Assembly (NCBI RefSeq): GCF_014207985.1
Contig: NZ_JACHMI010000001.1
Coordinates: 186,001-250,000, forward strand
Direction: 5' to 3'
Origin: Nonomuraea rubra
GTDB taxonomy: Bacteria > Actinomycetota > Actinomycetes > Streptosporangiales > Streptosporangiaceae
DNA length: 64,000 nucleotides
Part shown: positions 13,618 to 19,746 of the stretch, one piece after another
Layout: every line of letters begins with the position of its first letter
Numbering within the stretch: position 1 is the stretch's first letter
Program-made: the position numbers and the translations under genes
The notes under the pieces: generated by a model
What the model was told of the DNA's origin: nothing
Databases searched by the model: none
Seen by the model: the letters and a program-made list of their open reading frames with translations, nothing else

Positions 13618-13665
13618 TCAGTCCGATAAGCGCGGAGCTTGCGCATTTGTCGATCTTGGTGTCGG

Positions 13666-14841
13666 ATGCCCAGCATGCGGGAGAGCATCGAGGTCGTCAT
13701 CATCGGATCGGGACCGGCCGGCCTGACCCTGGCCAACCTGCTCCAGCGGGCCGGGATCGGCTGCGTGGTGCTGGAGCGCCAGAGCCGCTCGTACGTGGAG
13801 CAGCGCCAGCGCGCCGGCGTGCTGGAACACCACGGCGCCCGCGTCTTCGAGGACTGGGGGCTGGCCGAGAGCGTGCTGGCCGGCACGTCGAGCGACAGCA
13901 CGCTGGAGATCCGCCTCGACGGCCGGCCGCGCTTCATCGACGTCGCCGCCCTGGCCGGTGGCAGGGCTGGGCGGATCGTGCCGCAGCAGGTCCTCGTCGT
14001 GCGCCTGATCAAGACCTTCCTGGAGGGCGGGGGAGACCTGCGCTTCGAGGCCGCCGAGGTGACCCCGCACGGCCTCGACGGCGCCACGCCGACCGTCACG
14101 TACCGGGACGCGGAAGGCGTCGTGCACGAGATCGAGTGCGCGTACGTCGCGGGTTGCGACGGTTTCCACGGCGTCAGCCGCGCCAGCGTGCCGGAGGGTG
14201 CGCTGACCACCTACACCTACGACCACGGCGTCGGCTGGCTCACCGTGCTGGCCGACGCGTCCCCGCCGCGCCACGCGCTCTTCGGCATCCATCCGGCGGG
14301 CTTCGCGGCCCAGTTCGCGCGGGGGCCCAAGGCCAGCCGCTTCTACCTCGAGTGCGCGCCGGGCGCCACCCTGGACGAGTGGGGCGACGAGCGGATCTGG
14401 GAGCAGCTGCGGCTGCGCCTCGGCGACGCGGGCCTGCCCACCGGGCCGATCACGGAGAAGCTGTTCGTCGAGATGCGCTGCTTCGTCGCCGACCCCATGC
14501 GGTACGGCAGGCTCTTCCTCGTCGGTGACGCCGCGCACATCATCACCCCGATGGGCGGCAAGGGCATGAACCTGGCGATCGCCGACGCGAACGTGCTGGC
14601 CCACGGCCTGCGCGCGGCCCTGCGCGACGGCGACGAGGCGCCGCTGGCCGCGTACTCCGAGACCTGCCTGAAACGGGTGTGGGACCACCAGGAGTTCTCC
14701 CGGTGGATGCACGAGATGATGCACGAGGCCGGGAACGCCGCGCCGGCCGGGCCGTTCCGGCGGCAGCTCGCCAGGGCGCGGCTGGAGCGGCTGTTCGACT
14801 CCGACGCCGCGGCCCGCGCGTTCGCCGATCTCATGGCGTGA
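13666..14841 (+). CDS. pobA: 4-hydroxybenzoate 3-monooxygenase
   Basis: Flavoprotein that hydroxylates 4-hydroxybenzoate to protocatechuate using NAD(P)H and oxygen. At 391 residues it matches the family length. Signatures: the FAD dinucleotide fold VVIIGSGPAGLTLANLL (about 8-24), the RQRAGVLEHH segment near residue 45 characteristic of PobA, the DG motif GCDGFHGVSR (about 163-172), and the second FAD motif VGDAAHIITPMGGKGMN (about 286-302). Start is either ATG 13666 or ATG 13675; neither has a strong ribosome site. No pca ring-cleavage genes are in view. The next gene is a chorismate mutase, 79 bases downstream. Confidence 0.92.
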   Translation: MPSMRESIEVVIIGSGPAGLTLANLLQRAGIGCVVLERQSRSYVEQRQRAGVLEHHGARVFEDWGLAESVLAGTSSDSTLEIRLDGRPRFIDVAALAGGRAGRIVPQQVLVVRLIKTFLEGGGDLRFEAAEVTPHGLDGATPTVTYRDAEGVVHEIECAYVAGCDGFHGVSRASVPEGALTTYTYDHGVGWLTVLADASPPRHALFGIHPAGFAAQFARGPKASRFYLECAPGATLDEWGDERIWEQLRLRLGDAGLPTGPITEKLFVEMRCFVADPMRYGRLFLVGDAAHIITPMGGKGMNLAIADANVLAHGLRAALRDGDEAPLAAYSETCLKRVWDHQEFSRWMHEMMHEAGNAAPAGPFRRQLARARLERLFDSDAAARAFADLMA

Positions 14842-14920
14842 AACAAGCAGGCGTCGAATGTCCATTTTCTGCTAATATTTCCCCTTCTGAGACGATGTTG
14901 AGTCGAGGGGGCGTATTTAT

Positions 14921-15262
14921 ATGGAAAAGACCTCTGAAGATCAGCCCGATGTGGAAATGTTCGTCCAGAACGAGCTGCAGCGGCTCAGGGACAGCATCGA
15001 CAATCTTGACGCCGCCCTCGTCCACCTGCTCGCCGAACGTTTCAAGTGCACCCAGGAGGTCGGCCGTCTGAAGGCCGAATACCGGCTCCCTCCGGCGGAT
15101 CCGGCGCGCGAGGCGGCCCAAATTCGCCGCCTCCGCGCGCTGGCCGAGGAATCGAAACTCGACCCCGTCTTCGCCGAACGATTCCTGAATTTCATCATCG
15201 CGGAGGTCGTCCGCCACCACGAGCTGATCGCCAGCAGCCACGCCGCCGCCCGCGGCGACTAG
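14921..15262 (+). CDS. Chorismate mutase (AroQ, actinobacterial intracellular type)
   Basis: Converts chorismate to prephenate for phenylalanine and tyrosine synthesis; cytoplasmic, 113 residues. The three-helix AroQ fold is seen: LQRLRDSIDNLDAALVHLLA (helix 1 with active-site Arg), FKCTQEVGRLKAEYRLPPAD with the catalytic Lys, and AREAAQIRRLRALAEESKLD followed by FLNFIIAEVVRHHEL. The LPPAD and LDP signatures match the type that works with DAHP synthase in actinobacteria. The ATG at 14921 follows GAGGGGGCG in an AT-rich leader. Its TAG overlaps the stop of the convergent MauE-like gene within CTAG (15259-15262). Confidence 0.88.
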   Translation: MEKTSEDQPDVEMFVQNELQRLRDSIDNLDAALVHLLAERFKCTQEVGRLKAEYRLPPADPAREAAQIRRLRALAEESKLDPVFAERFLNFIIAEVVRHHELIASSHAAARGD

Positions 15263-16014
15263 GGCTGGACGAGCGCGACCCGCACGCCTGCCGGGTCGTT
15301 CCCGGCGAGCGGGACGGCGAAGACCGCCGTGCGGTCCCGGGCCCCGTACACCACGAAGCGGATGCCGTCCTCGTCCCACGACTCCAGCACGTCCGAGGTG
15401 AGCTGGGCCGAGGCCGAGCAGTACGCGGCGCTGCGGCGCAGCAGGTGCAGGGACGCCTCCAGCGGGACGGCCGCGGGCGGCGGGATCGCCAGCGGGCGGC
15501 GCACGCGCACCAGGAGGCCGCGCAGCGGGGTGAGCCAGTGGCGGTCCAGCTCGGCGGAGAGCGCCAGCAGGACCGCGGCCTCCAGCACGATCACGGCGGG
15601 GAGGGCGGGGCCTTCCGGGGCGGCCGCCGCGAGCAAGGAGCCGGCCAGCAGCAGGCCCGCGCGGGCGAAGGCGCGTACGTCCACGGGCCGGGAGTGCGTG
15701 CCCAGGCAGCCGCACGACGAGGTGGGCGCGGCCACGTAGGCATAGGTCAGGTAGGCCAGGAAACCGGCGGACAGCAGGGCGGCGGCCACGCCGTCCACGG
15801 GGTGGAGCGGGGGCGCCAGCAGTGCGGCGGCCACGGCCAGCTCGGCCAGGCCGACGAGCCGCAGCGCGGGGACCGCGCGCGCCGGGCCGGCGAGCCGGGC
15901 CAGTGCGGTGCGCCCGGCCTGCGCCCTCATCCGCCTGCCGAACAGCTTCACCAGGCCGGCCCAGAGGAGGAAGGCGGCTATCACGTACGGCTGCGACGCG
16001 GCGATCCCGTGCAT
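15259..16014 (-). CDS. MauE/DoxX-like redox membrane protein
   Basis: Integral membrane protein of 251 residues. About four spans are visible in the first 155 residues, with the motif SSCGCLGTHSRP (Cys 101 and 103) in a loop after the third span; this CxC signature is typical of MauE-family proteins, which help form disulfides in methylamine dehydrogenase and related secreted proteins. The C-terminal 90 residues are hydrophilic (EDGIRFVVYGARDRTAVF). Strong AAGGAGG precedes the ATG. It is the third gene of a tight cassette (gaps of 11 and 12 bases) after a Cys-rich protein and a Tat-exported protein, so a role in oxidising that partner is inferred. Confidence 0.82.
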   Translation of the reverse strand: MHGIAASQPYVIAAFLLWAGLVKLFGRRMRAQAGRTALARLAGPARAVPALRLVGLAELAVAAALLAPPLHPVDGVAAALLSAGFLAYLTYAYVAAPTSSCGCLGTHSRPVDVRAFARAGLLLAGSLLAAAAPEGPALPAVIVLEAAVLLALSAELDRHWLTPLRGLLVRVRRPLAIPPPAAVPLEASLHLLRRSAAYCSASAQLTSDVLESWDEDGIRFVVYGARDRTAVFAVPLAGNDPAGVRVALVQP

Positions 16015-16025
16015 GCACTGCCTCC

Positions 16026-16628
16026 TTAGTGCGGGGAGAAGACCGTGGCGATGTCGACCTCGTTCGTGTCCGGCCGCCAGGCGCCGAGGATCTGCACGTG
16101 CTGGCTGACCTTCAGCATCGACAGGTCCGCCGTGGGCGGCGACTCGGAGTGGATGGCCACCGACTTGCCGGCGACGACGTGGCACAGCACGTCGTGGCCG
16201 TTGTGGTCGAGGTGGATGGTCTGGCCGGTGATGTTCTTGATGTGGCCCTTGATGTTGACGATGTTCAGCCACACCGCCTCGGCGGCCAGCATGCCGTCGG
16301 GCATGCGCACGCCTCTGGCGTACAGGCCGTCGCCGGGCCTGGCCTGGTCGAAGGGGACCGGGCCGAGCTTCCACAGGCTCGTGCCGTCCACGACCCTGAT
16401 GGTGTGGAAGACCAGGTTCGAGCCCAGGACGAGCAGGGTGTTGTCCTTGATCGAGCGGATCCGGCCCTCGGCGAAGTCCGGGTCGGGGGCGCCGGGCTCC
16501 ACCTTCTGGGCGGACTGCTGGGCGGCGAAGGCCGCCTCGGGGCCGAGTGAGCCCAGCGCGGTCGCGGCGACGACGCCGGCGCCCCCGCCGAGCACGGCGG
16601 ACTTGAGCACGTCCCTTCTGCTGCGCAT
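16026..16628 (-). CDS. Twin-arginine-exported protein of unknown function, 200 aa
   Basis: The N-terminus has a clear Tat signal: SRRDVLKSAVLGGGAGVVAA, ending near residue 35 (AAFAA). The mature part is beta-rich and may form one or two small barrels (EGRIRSIKDNTLLVLG, VVDGTSLWKLGPVPFDQ, VQILGAWRPDTNEVDIATVF). It has only one mature cysteine, so it is not itself the disulfide-rich component. It lies between the Cys-rich gene and the MauE-like gene in the same operon. An inferred role is to carry the signal-less Cys-rich partner through the Tat pathway. GGAGG precedes the ATG. Confidence 0.7.
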   Translation of the reverse strand: MRSRRDVLKSAVLGGGAGVVAATALGSLGPEAAFAAQQSAQKVEPGAPDPDFAEGRIRSIKDNTLLVLGSNLVFHTIRVVDGTSLWKLGPVPFDQARPGDGLYARGVRMPDGMLAAEAVWLNIVNIKGHIKNITGQTIHLDHNGHDVLCHVVAGKSVAIHSESPPTADLSMLKVSQHVQILGAWRPDTNEVDIATVFSPH

Positions 16629-16640
16629 CGTTCCGCCCTC

Positions 16641-17090
16641 CTAGGCCGTCGAGATCTCCACCGGCCGCAGGCCGGACGAGAGGCTGGCGATCTGGCTGTA
16701 GGCGGCGGGGGTGAGGTCGATCAGGCGGTTGCTCGCGCAGGTCGCGCCGCAGCAGCTCCGCTCGCCGCAGAACAGGTCGGTCTGCGGGCCGCAGTCGGCG
16801 ATGGCGGTGACGACGCTGCTGCCGGTGCACAGCGCCGTGATGCGGTGGCGGAACCCGCAGGTCCGGCGGGACAGGCCGACGCCGCAGCTGTCGGGGCGGG
16901 TGATCGCCCAGCAGGCGTCGGAGGTGTTGGGCCAGGCGTGCTGGAGGTTGCCGGAGTTGCAGGTGCCGCAGGCTCCCTTTCCGGTGCTGCTGCAGGGGCC
17001 CCATGCGGTGCCGCAGCAGAACCAGGAGACCTCTCCCTGGACCGGGCCGAGTAAGTCGGCGGGCGGGTCGGTGGCCGTGCTTCGCGCCAT
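16641..17090 (-). CDS. Cysteine-rich protein with barwin/expansin-like C-terminus, no signal peptide
   Basis: A 149-residue protein with 14 cysteines, an even number suited to disulfides. The C-terminal half resembles a double-psi beta-barrel of the expansin/barwin type: CTGSSVVTAIADCGPQ, then LIDLTPAAYSQIASLSSGL followed by RPVEI. Cysteine clusters include FCCGTAWGPC and SCCGATC. The N-terminus (MARSTATDPPADLLG) is hydrophilic, so the protein has no export signal of its own despite its secreted-type composition. AAGGAGG lies at ideal distance from ATG 17090. It is first in the cassette with the Tat protein and MauE homologue. Resemblance to methylamine dehydrogenase light chain was considered and not supported. 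Confidence 0.7.
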   Translation of the reverse strand: MARSTATDPPADLLGPVQGEVSWFCCGTAWGPCSSTGKGACGTCNSGNLQHAWPNTSDACWAITRPDSCGVGLSRRTCGFRHRITALCTGSSVVTAIADCGPQTDLFCGERSCCGATCASNRLIDLTPAAYSQIASLSSGLRPVEISTA

Positions 17091-17197
17091 GCGCGTCCTC
17101 CTTGGGTGGGCTCTGGACGATCTCGGCGAGGGGGTTGAAGCTTTCCGACTCGATCTATGAGTACCATGTAAGGATTTTTCGTCAATGCCCGAATTTC

Positions 17198-18337
17198 TCA
17201 GGCACAGAACGCGGTCACCGTGGCGGCCAGCACGTCGGTGACCCGGTGCACCGAGGCGAGGTCGGCCCACTCCGTGTCGGCGTGGGCGCCGCCGCCGTCG
17301 GCGCCGAAGAGCAGGCACGGGATGCCGGCGCGGGCCAGCAGGGCGCAGTCCGTCCAGAAGGGCTCGGCGCGGATGACCGGCGGGCGGCCGAGTGCCCGCT
17401 CCGCCTCGCGCAGCACGACCCGCGTGATCGCCGCGTCGGGGTCGGCCTCGAAGGGCTCGCGGTGCAGGCCGGGCCGCAGCCGGTAGGAGAAGCCGGGCAC
17501 GGTGGCGGCGAGGTGATCGAGAACCCCGATCAGCTCGGCCCGGACGCCCTGCTCGGTCTCGCCGGGGACCGTGCGCCGCTCGATCGTGATCAGGCAGCGG
17601 GCCGGATAGGTGGAAGGGCCCTCGCCCCCCTCGATGAGCGAGGCGTGCACGGTGCCCGGCCCCAGCAGGTGGTGCCCGCCCGAGGCGGCCAGCCGCCGGC
17701 CGAGCGCCTCCAGCGCCACCAGGAAGTGACCGGCCTTGGCGATCGCGTCCACGCCCAGGTCGGGGCGGGAGCCGTGGGCGGCGCGGCCCAGCACCTCGAC
17801 CTCGAACCAGGCGAACCCCTTGTGCGCCAGCGTCACCTCCAGCAGGCTCGGCTCGGTGACGACGGCGCCGTCGGCGGTGAAACGCTCCAGCACCTCCTCG
17901 GTGCCGAAGCTGGCGTGCTCCTCGTCGGCCACGCAGGCCACGATGACGTCGCCGCGCAGCGGGCCGCCCGCGGTGGCGCGGGCGGCGCCGGCCATCATCG
18001 CGGCCACGCCGCTCTTCATGTCGAAGGCGCCCCGGCCGTAGATCTTCCCGTCCTCGACGCGCGGGACGAGCGGGTCGCCGTCGTACGTGCCGTACGCGAC
18101 GGTGTCGAGGTGGCCGTTGAGCATGATCGAGCGCCCGCCGCCGGTGCCGCGGGCCACGGCCACCACGGAAGGGCGCCCGGGCCGCCGTTCCAGGCGGTGG
18201 ATCTCGAACCCCCGCTCGCCCAGCCACCGCGCGCAGAACGTGGCGGCGGCCGACTCGCCCGCGCCGCCGGGGGAGAGCCCCGGGTTGACGGAGTCGAGGG
18301 CGATGAGGCGTTCGAGCAGCGGCAGCGGGTCCGTCAT
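17198..18337 (-). CDS. M20-family metallopeptidase/deacylase (ArgE/DapE-like)
   Basis: Zinc-dependent amidohydrolase of 379 residues, expected to remove acyl groups or cleave peptides at a bimetal site. Metal ligands are visible in LNGHLDTVAYG (His, about residue 88), RGAFDMKSGVAAMM (Asp, about 121) and CVADEEHASFGTEE (catalytic/metal Glu pair, about 155). The central dimerisation domain begins after KGFAWFEVEVLGRAAHGS (about 190), and the final ligand region lies near the C-terminus (CLLFGADGGGAHADTEWADL). The start at 18337 has GGGAGGCCC upstream. The exact substrate is not clear from sequence. Confidence 0.9.
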   Translation of the reverse strand: MTDPLPLLERLIALDSVNPGLSPGGAGESAAATFCARWLGERGFEIHRLERRPGRPSVVAVARGTGGGRSIMLNGHLDTVAYGTYDGDPLVPRVEDGKIYGRGAFDMKSGVAAMMAGAARATAGGPLRGDVIVACVADEEHASFGTEEVLERFTADGAVVTEPSLLEVTLAHKGFAWFEVEVLGRAAHGSRPDLGVDAIAKAGHFLVALEALGRRLAASGGHHLLGPGTVHASLIEGGEGPSTYPARCLITIERRTVPGETEQGVRAELIGVLDHLAATVPGFSYRLRPGLHREPFEADPDAAITRVVLREAERALGRPPVIRAEPFWTDCALLARAGIPCLLFGADGGGAHADTEWADLASVHRVTDVLAATVTAFCA

Positions 18338-18392
18338 GGCGGGCCTCCCGGGGAGAGGGATCACCCGCCATCATGCCCCGCGGGCCCGTGGT

Positions 18393-19445
18393 TCAGAGGG
18401 CGTCGGCGTTCTGCGCCGCCTGGTAGACGGCCATGGCCTCGTCGCCGAAGAAGGGGCCGAACATGAAGTTCGGGGCGAAGTTGTAGGTGAAGCTGTTGAC
18501 GGAGTTCAGCCAGCCGAGGCCGGTGGACTCGTCGAAGCCCTGGAACCAGGGCCCGCCGCTCGACCCGCCGGTCATGTTGCAGCGCAGCCCCTGGTCACGG
18601 GTCATGACGGTGTCGTTGAACGCGCGCCCGCTGCAGTAGATCAGCTCCGACCCGTCGAACGGATCGGCCGCCGGGTACCCGAAGGCGAACATCTGCCGCT
18701 GCCTGGCCTGGTTGAAGGCGACCCCCTGCCCGCCCACGACGTCGGTCAGCGTCCGCCCGTTCAGCGGCGCCACCACGACGGCGGCCACGTCGAAGTTGAT
18801 GTCCTCCCTGGCGTTCCACCGCTGGGTGGTGAGCATCGCGCTGGCCACCCAGGTGCCGAACGGGCGCCGCCCGTCGTCGAAGGCCGGCACGAACACCCAG
18901 TTCCTGTGCGCGGCCCCGTTCAGCTTCACGCAGTGCCCGGCGGTGATCACCACGCTCTCGTTCGCGCTGGTCACGGCCGAGCCGGAGCAGGAGGAGTTGC
19001 GGCCGTCGGCGGTGGTGAAGAAGACCCGGCCGGTGGTGCGCACGACCGCGCCGCCGTCCGTCCACTGCAACCCCGGGCTGTTGGGCACCAGGGCCTGCCG
19101 CGCGGCGGTGACAGGCGCGGTGCCGCCGACCGACCACGCGGCGCCGCGCGTGGTCCACGGGCTGCGGCGGGTGTTGGTGGCGCCGCGGGTGGCCCACGGG
19201 TCGCCCTCCGACGGGCCGCGCGACTGGGTACGCCGCGGCGCGGGCGCGTCGAGGGGCTGTGCCGCGAGCATGCGCTGCGTGGTCCAGTACTGCGAGACGG
19301 TCCTGCGCTCCGCCTGCGAATCCGTGGCGGTCCAGCCGGCGGGCCTGGGGTCGTTCGCGGCCCCGGCCTGCGCGGCACCCGCCGGTACCAGGGCGCCTGC
19401 CAGGGCGAGGGCGACGGCGGAGAGCAGGCTGACTCTGCGGTGCAT
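18393..19445 (-). CDS. Secreted trypsin-like serine protease
   Basis: Extracellular endopeptidase, 350 residues. Signal peptide at residues 1-27 (LLSAVALALAGALVPAGAAQA). A pro-region of about 90 residues rich in Arg/Thr/Pro precedes the catalytic domain. The triad is intact: His in VITAGHCVKL, Asp in INFDVAAVVV, Ser in NMTGGSSGGPWFQGF. Cysteine pairs around His and Ser suggest two disulfides (CSGSAVTS...HC; CSGRAF...RC). The mRNA leader contains a perfect 12-bp hairpin that covers the ribosome site just before the ATG, suggesting translational control. Confidence 0.9.
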   Translation of the reverse strand: MHRRVSLLSAVALALAGALVPAGAAQAGAANDPRPAGWTATDSQAERRTVSQYWTTQRMLAAQPLDAPAPRRTQSRGPSEGDPWATRGATNTRRSPWTTRGAAWSVGGTAPVTAARQALVPNSPGLQWTDGGAVVRTTGRVFFTTADGRNSSCSGSAVTSANESVVITAGHCVKLNGAAHRNWVFVPAFDDGRRPFGTWVASAMLTTQRWNAREDINFDVAAVVVAPLNGRTLTDVVGGQGVAFNQARQRQMFAFGYPAADPFDGSELIYCSGRAFNDTVMTRDQGLRCNMTGGSSGGPWFQGFDESTGLGWLNSVNSFTYNFAPNFMFGPFFGDEAMAVYQAAQNADAL

Positions 19446-19488
19446 TACGTACCTCCCGAAACCGGAATCTGCCGTAGGGAGGTACGTA
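19446..19488 (-). promoter_or_regulatory. Perfect 12-bp hairpin sequestering the protease ribosome binding site
   Basis: The arms at 19446-19457 (tacgtacctccc) and 19477-19488 (gggaggtacgta) are exactly complementary around a 19-base loop. In the minus-strand mRNA the 3' arm contains GGGAGG, the ribosome site, and the start codon (19443-19445) follows the stem with no gap. When folded, the ribosome site would be fully paired. It could be a thermometer or protein-binding control element. Confidence 0.75.
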
Positions 19489-19746
19489 GGGACGGCCTTA
19501 TCTTCCTCAACACCCACGCAAACGGATATATCGCCATCACGGAGTGAAGTCGCCATATTGCACAGCGTCACCTGGGGTGAAATGCGTTTGCTTTACAGAA
19601 TGGCGGTCCGATATTGACGCTCATTCACCGGTTCTTTCCCATTACGGGAAATTCGGATTCGGCGTGGCGTTGTCATCTCGCTCGCGGCAACTGTAAGCAT
19701 CGTACCGGTCTGGCGACTAAGGGTCGCATTCCGAAAGGAACGGTAA
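19489..19746. other. Divergent promoter region, relatively AT-rich
   Basis: About 260 bases between the protease leader and the next plus-strand secreted protein. The segment is noticeably richer in A/T than its surroundings (for example attgacgctcattcaccggt near 19613 and aaatgcgtttgctttacaga near 19578), consistent with two divergent promoters. TTGACG at 19614 is a possible -35 for the plus-strand gene, but a matching -10 is not convincing. Confidence 0.4.

Follow-up and report, generated by a model that had tools for sequence, protein, structure and literature searches.

The gene cassette described here lies on the minus strand of a 64,000-nucleotide stretch of the Nonomuraea rubra genome (contig NZ_JACHMI010000001.1, positions 186,001 to 250,000), which is referred to below as the window and is numbered from its first letter. 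It consists of three genes, cys, tat and mauE, that encode a Cys-rich protein with a double-psi beta-barrel (DPBB) domain, a protein with a signal of the twin-arginine translocation (Tat) type, and a membrane protein of the MauE family (Table 1). The genes are separated by gaps of 12 bases (16629-16640) and 11 bases (16015-16025), and this spacing, together with the gene order, suggests that they form one operon. An earlier interpretation made from the letters of the DNA, here called the sequence-only reading, had described the trio as a 14-Cys protein without a signal peptide, a Tat protein with the motif SRRDVLK and a MauE-like protein with the motif SSCGCLG, and had proposed that the first is exported on the second and oxidized by the third. 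The three genes were recovered when the sequence was re-read, and the coordinates agree with the gaps and with the AAGGAGG or GGAGG ribosome sites that had been reported.

Table 1. Features of the cys-tat-mauE cassette and its upstream region in the window.
Feature	Position	Strand	Description or basis
cys gene	16641..17090 including stop (coding 17090..16644, stop 16641-16643)	-	149 residues, 14 Cys, DPBB (RlpA/expansin-like), no recognizable signal peptide
tat gene	16026..16628 including stop (coding 16628..16029, stop 16026-16028)	-	200 residues, twin-arginine signal and DUF5666-like sequence
mauE gene	15259..16014 including stop (coding 16014..15262, stop 15259-15261)	-	251 residues, MauE-family membrane protein
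DPBB_1 match in cys, residues 68-146	16653..16889	-	Pfam; invariant acids D99 (16794-16796) and D125 (16716-16718)
Predicted Tat signal peptide, first 36 residues of tat	16521..16628	-	Motif alignment
CxC of MauE (C101-G-C103), directly after the third transmembrane helix	15706..15714	-	SCGC in 80/81 aligned rows
Ribosome site AAGGAGG of cys	17097..17103	-	Sequence; alignment of upstream DNA
Ribosome site GGAGG of tat	16637..16641	-	Sequence
Ribosome site AAGGAGG of mauE	16021..16027	-	Sequence
Promoter-like block 5′ of cys, TTGACG (17180-17185) to AGTCGGAAAGC	17140..17185	-	Alignment, window and 14 relatives

Conservation of the unit and its proteins

The cassette is a real conserved unit. 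A scan of genome contigs yielded 86 relatives of cys, and in the 80 loci that were kept cys is always followed by tat, with mauE in third place in 79 of them (the contig of the remaining locus, L013, ends there); the search for the same gene order in actinomycetes that the sequence-only reading had suggested thus bears out its cassette. Partial or frame-broken matches were limited to mauE in L047 and L068 and tat in L076. The hosts are soil actinomycetes and include Nonomuraea, Streptosporangium, Sphaerisporangium, Thermoactinospora and Kribbella, as well as many genera that we take to belong to the Micromonosporaceae. Given that 80 other loci preserve the frames and that all 14 Cys of cys are invariant in an alignment of 65 homologues, the cassette frames go beyond what chance would produce. 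When the long frames of 18 representative loci were compared, the cassette genes and their antisense shadows recurred in all 18, and beyond the cassette no frame of at least 120 residues recurred in more than four of the other 17 loci.

The cassette is sparsely distributed. Among 394 genomes of the class, strong matches (E<1e-50) were found in five for cys and in the identical five for tat, and in a phylum sample of 296 genomes the cassette search matched only the window's own genome and gave one weak match besides. A full cys is present in 26 of 200 genomes of the order; tat accompanies it in all 26, and a strong (E<1e-50) cassette-type MauE in 25. In a tree of the joined proteins, with the root at the midpoint and the groups set by us (L045, titled Streptomyces sp., being counted with Kribbella), the Streptosporangiaceae (33 loci), the Micromonosporaceae (28) and Kribbella (15) each form one clade, with support of 0.94, 0.91 and 1.0. 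Recent transfer between families was considered and not seen, as each of the three groups forms a single clade in this tree. Protein distances are correlated between tat and mauE (r=0.94, 76 loci), and within the Micromonosporaceae (27 loci) the values are 0.64 for cys-tat, 0.69 for cys-mauE and 0.93 for tat-mauE; these correlations are not used as support.

The expansin/barwin-like kinship suggested earlier for the Cys-rich protein holds at the level of profile comparison. The window cys matches the Pfam family DPBB_1, which belongs to the RlpA/expansin superfamily, at E 2.5e-5 (24.8 bits, under the cut-off of 28.8), and the same family is matched by 63 of the 65 homologues at E<=0.01, with a best value of 1.1e-8. 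Since the Cys residues are even in number and fully invariant, they suggest seven disulfides. Among the 126 cys homologues listed, of 303, every one carries the motifs DCGP and D[LF]T[PA], which hold the two DPBB Asp residues. These acids align, weakly (E 0.24), with NDRGP and IIDVS of PDB chain 4avr, which we take to be the RlpA-like protein PA4485, and a search of solved-structure sequences with cys gave no significant DPBB match (9ce9, E 0.084; 4avr, E 0.24). For RlpA itself, PMC9712689 names residue D168 of the Pseudomonas aeruginosa protein. A kinship with the methylamine dehydrogenase light chain was also considered and rejected, no such Pfam family being found for the window cys (E<=1) or for the 65 members (E<=0.01).

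Signal peptides of the cys homologues' own, which would have spoken against the sequence-only reading, were looked for and not found. The count covers 123 of the 126 listed homologues, P0016, P0017 and P0102 being left aside because their N-terminal anchor is absent. Fewer than 12 residues precede the anchor in 83, and the remaining 40 have no convincing hydrophobic core; the most hydrophobic N-terminus among these 40 is that of P0078, in which the extension precedes a second plausible start. On this evidence cys is predicted to have no signal peptide of its own.

The tat product, by comparison of its N-terminus with those of its relatives, is predicted to carry a Tat-type signal, with the twin-arginine motif, the hydrophobic core and the AxA-type end all present. 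It begins MRSRRDVLKSAVLGGG. By eye, the motif RR-x-[LVMF]-L is present in 81 of 82 tat rows (the exception, L076, appears frame-shifted), as expected from the earlier claim of a Tat protein beside the Cys-rich gene. The core and the AxA-type end, GSLxPEAAFA, are conserved across distant genera, and the best 15-residue hydropathy in 31 cassette Tat proteins has a median of 1.64 and a minimum of 1.45; TIGR01409 scores 12.7 bits on the window protein, under its cut-off of 16.7. Of 31 tat homologues, 15 match the family DUF5666 at E<=0.01, the best of them at 4.6e-4. The window tat reaches only E 0.028, and many homologues are labelled ‘cell wall protein’ in the source records. The best solved-structure matches of tat were two dehydrogenase-labelled chains (E 0.006-0.007), which were judged unconvincing.

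The identification of the third product as a MauE homologue is upheld by a match to Pfam MauE (PF07291) at E 3.6e-15 and 56.8 bits, above the cut-off of 27, over residues 7-130. The last ~95 residues form a conserved part outside this match, a point that is absent from the sequence-only reading, and hydropathy indicates five transmembrane helices followed by a soluble C-terminal part. The one aligned row without SCGC, L068, looks frame-shifted at a contig end, and many cassette MauE proteins have no Cys besides the CxC. Searches of solved-structure sequences returned nothing for MauE or for the tat-cys fusion described below. The window's genome holds other MauE copies (L082, L083) that, by eye, lie beside DsbA-like and TlpA/MauD-like proteins.

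A fused tat-cys relative beside MauE

The main new result is a relative of the cassette in which tat and cys are fused into a single protein. The cassette MauE profile matches 186 of the 200 order genomes, and most of the matches listed span nearly the full length. A sample of 18 MauE loci was taken from the order genomes, picked partly for a weak cys or tat match adjoining MauE, and in 16 of them MauE is preceded by one protein, mostly of ~310 residues, whose N-terminal part is tat-like and whose C-terminal part is a Cys-rich DPBB region; of the other two loci, L199 is cut by a contig end and only the DPBB part was called in L202. When a profile of 15 fusion sequences was compared with the two cassette families, its N-terminal half aligned with tat (probability 97%, E 2.2e-11) and its C-terminal part with cys (probability 84%, E 7.5e-6); these E-values apply to single comparisons. 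The fusion profile, when used in a genome search, also matched the window's own tat gene (E 4.9e-6).

In a sample of 296 genomes of the class, the fusion occurs in 27 of the 28 that belong to the window's family, and the 268 others gave one weak match. It is also present in the window's genome, at ~12.29 Mb (L085, 527-2262), where MauE overlaps its end. MauE adjoins the fusion in all 19 loci (the 18 sampled and L085), and fusion-type MauE has two more Cys in the part behind the membrane helices, again in 19 of 19. At 17 of these loci (16 by script and L197 by eye) a divergent gene for a sigma factor is found upstream of the fusion, L191 and L199 being cut by contig ends; one such sigma gene, when compared with profiles, matched sigma-70 regions 2 and 4. 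It is speculation that the fusion, as a Cys-rich cytoplasmic protein encoded next to a sigma factor gene, might sense redox state.

By a strict pattern, 27 of 36 distinct fusion rows carry RRRxLxAAxLG, a short motif of the Tat type, at their start, but the hydrophobic core of a Tat signal is absent: ahead of the first domain, the best hydropathy over 15 residues has a median of 0.50 and a maximum of 1.13 (38 rows, 36 distinct, with L228 in the wrong frame). Because its Tat signal is reduced to its start and lacks the core, the fusion is probably intracellular. The DPBB acids also differ. At the first position, 15 fusions have D in five, E in four, A in five and G in one, and at the second position E in nine and Q, S or R in six, so that Asp stands at both positions in 0 of 15 fusions as against 126 of the 126 listed cassette proteins; this is suggestive of acids that are not conserved in the fusion. 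Domains that are fused in some proteins often bind one another where they are separate, and since the fusion joins both domains, cys and tat are likely to form a complex. The two arrangements would most naturally be read as one complex in two versions, one split and exported, the other fused and kept inside the cell.

Proposed export, possible oxidation and competing explanations

The best explanation of these observations, which we hold with moderate confidence, is that cys is exported by hitchhiking on tat, and that the two proteins form a complex destined for the cell exterior. In the cytoplasm, the tat protein would bind cys, which has no signal of its own, and take it through the Tat translocon, and MauE would aid the formation of the seven disulfides presumed in this 14-Cys DPBB protein. 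Outside the cell, the DPBB protein may bind or act on cell-wall glycan, as RlpA and expansins do, and the paralogous fused locus, its Tat signal cut to the first residues, would be the intracellular counterpart.

Several known systems share parts of this layout. HybOC and PaoABC of Escherichia coli are redox enzymes with cofactors, unlike the Cys-rich cargo of the cassette. They resemble it in that signal-less subunits are carried by a signal-bearing one, as described in PMC4273604. The closest parallel in layout is Streptomyces melC/melD, where, according to PMC2758597, MelC2 has no signal and is secreted by hitchhiking on the Tat-signalled MelC1, and the homologous MelD2 is intracellular. 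There too a Tat-signalled helper and a signal-less partner come from one operon and a homologous intracellular version exists, but the cargo is a copper enzyme, whereas in the cassette it is a Cys-rich DPBB protein, a MauE is added and the intracellular version is fused; the likeness is one of layout, and sequence kinship is not expected. The mau cluster (MauE, MauD and methylamine dehydrogenase) likewise has a MauE-family membrane protein adjoining the gene of a Cys-rich protein, but the cassette cys matched no methylamine dehydrogenase family in Pfam, the cassette MauE has its extra C-terminal part, and no MauD-like gene belongs to the conserved cassette in the 18 loci compared. With RlpA, expansin and barwin DPBB proteins, cys shares the DPBB_1 match and the weakly aligned acids (4avr, E 0.24), and it differs from them by its 14 invariant Cys, the lack of its own signal peptide and its one short domain.

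A number of observations weigh against hitchhiker export coupled to oxidation by MauE. Three genomes speak against strict dependence among the genes. In G394 (L237), cys and tat are present, and MauE is absent both from the matches of the genome search and from the genes called in the 9 kb locus; in G440 (L205, 1500-2200), tat and mauE are intact, cys is reduced to its last part and a TetR-like gene (by eye) adjoins; and in G539 (L238) a fragment of cys stands without tat, with a transposase-like frame (by eye) ~1 kb off. The loci of G440 and G539 look like decaying cassettes. The sequence-only reading had tied its proposal to cys not occurring without tat and MauE genes, and this stood in part: every full cys in the order genomes has tat, but G394 has no MauE match, and distant homologues of cys, in the form of the fusion, occur where there is no separate tat. 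The fused homologues suggest, in addition, that the domain pair can work without export, and the argument from the DPBB acids is weak, as 6 of 15 fusions have an acid at both positions once Glu is counted.

The explanation is weakest where it concerns the role of MauE. Across 31 cassette sequences, with helix limits set by us from hydropathy, the mean number of Lys and Arg is 5.8 in the loop between the first and second transmembrane helices, 3.2 in the loop between the third and fourth, which holds the CxC, and 4.8 in the first 20 residues after the fifth, whereas the two remaining loops have 0.3 and 0.4. Loops rich in Lys and Arg face the cytoplasm by the positive-inside rule, and this distribution would therefore place the CxC and the C-terminal part in the cytoplasm, hinting that the CxC does not face outward as the simple form of the explanation would have it. 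Against a cytoplasmic CxC, another MauE of the window's genome, with a CGCF motif, adjoins a DsbA-like protein that is presumed to be outside. A further difficulty is that PhoA is reported in PMC9436932 to be exported by Tat only after its disulfides have formed, and a 14-Cys protein in the reduced state would for that reason be unlikely to pass through Tat unassisted. There are hints, from the same charge distribution, that an inward-facing CxC could oxidize cys before export, which would fit the PhoA report. A stronger proposal, which we regard as doubtful, is a dedicated pre-export system in which the cytoplasm-facing CxC would oxidize the 14-Cys DPBB protein on its Tat-signalled carrier, and in which the cytoplasmic disulfides of the fused paralogue would use the same kind of oxidant.

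In a somewhat unlikely reading, which is compatible with hitchhiking, MauE would not oxidize the Cys-rich protein but would have another redox role and be only co-regulated. The absence of MauE in G394 is in keeping with this, as are the other MauE copies of the window's genome that, by eye, adjoin DsbA-like or TlpA/MauD-like genes, but a MauE gene stands behind the one that carries the cys domain at 79 of the 80 cassette loci and at all 19 loci of the fused type that were examined. Also unlikely is an arrangement without hitchhiking, in which cys would be a cytoplasmic thiol or metal partner of MauE, as its fused homologue probably is, and tat would be exported alone or merely anchored by its signal. 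The lack of a signal on cys, the charge distribution that puts the CxC and C-terminal part of MauE in the cytoplasm, and the hydropathy of the fusions, none of which reaches the cassette minimum of 1.45, would all suit such an arrangement. It is countered by the core and AxA-type end of the cassette tat, which are kept across distant genera, by the two DPBB Asp that are retained in the cassette cys and not in the fusions, and by the extra Cys pair of fusion-type MauE, whose absence from many cassette MauE proteins suggests that the two systems are not simply one thing split. Departure of cys by some other signal-independent route, such as a different secretion system or lysis, with tat a wall protein in its own right that shares the operon, would agree with the missing signal and is nonetheless very improbable, as the comparison of 18 loci shows no other conserved gene in the neighbourhood and exactly these two domains are joined in the fusion. 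That the missing signal is a start-site error can practically be dismissed. In the window the reading frame does continue without a stop well beyond the start of cys, but the distance from an upstream in-frame stop to the first conserved Trp is ~10 codons in L058 and L060 and 13-20 codons in 14 further loci, which refutes the error for those loci, and the position of the ribosome site suits the given start.

If export by hitchhiking is true, the cassette would be a Tat hitchhiker system whose cargo relies on disulfides and not on a metal cofactor, and which comes with a candidate redox protein of its own; the fused, probably intracellular paralogue would provide a natural control that is also present in the window's genome. 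The question of how a Cys-rich protein passes the Tat folding check from a reducing cytoplasm would become testable, and oxidation before export, if true, would mean that bacteria deliberately make structural disulfides on the reducing side of the membrane. No paper on the cys-tat-mauE gene set was found in the open-licence PubMed Central literature, judged by titles and the starts of abstracts.

Surroundings of the cassette

The block upstream of cys is retained in most of the 14 aligned relatives, though not in L017, and is near-identical in most of the Nonomuraea relatives compared; from its position and conservation it may act as a promoter. In the Micromonosporaceae another block, TTGACT and ACAACAATC, stands ahead of cys in most of 14 loci. 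Upstream of the cassette, at 17198-19571, the window contains an M20-type peptidase gene (Pfam) and a gene for a secreted trypsin-like protease (by eye), neither of which is conserved with the cassette in the 18 loci compared. On the other side, at 13639-15262, a 4-hydroxybenzoate 3-monooxygenase-like gene is followed by a gene for a monofunctional chorismate mutase, and the end of mauE overlaps this convergent gene by 4 bases, a detail that the sequence-only reading did not contain.

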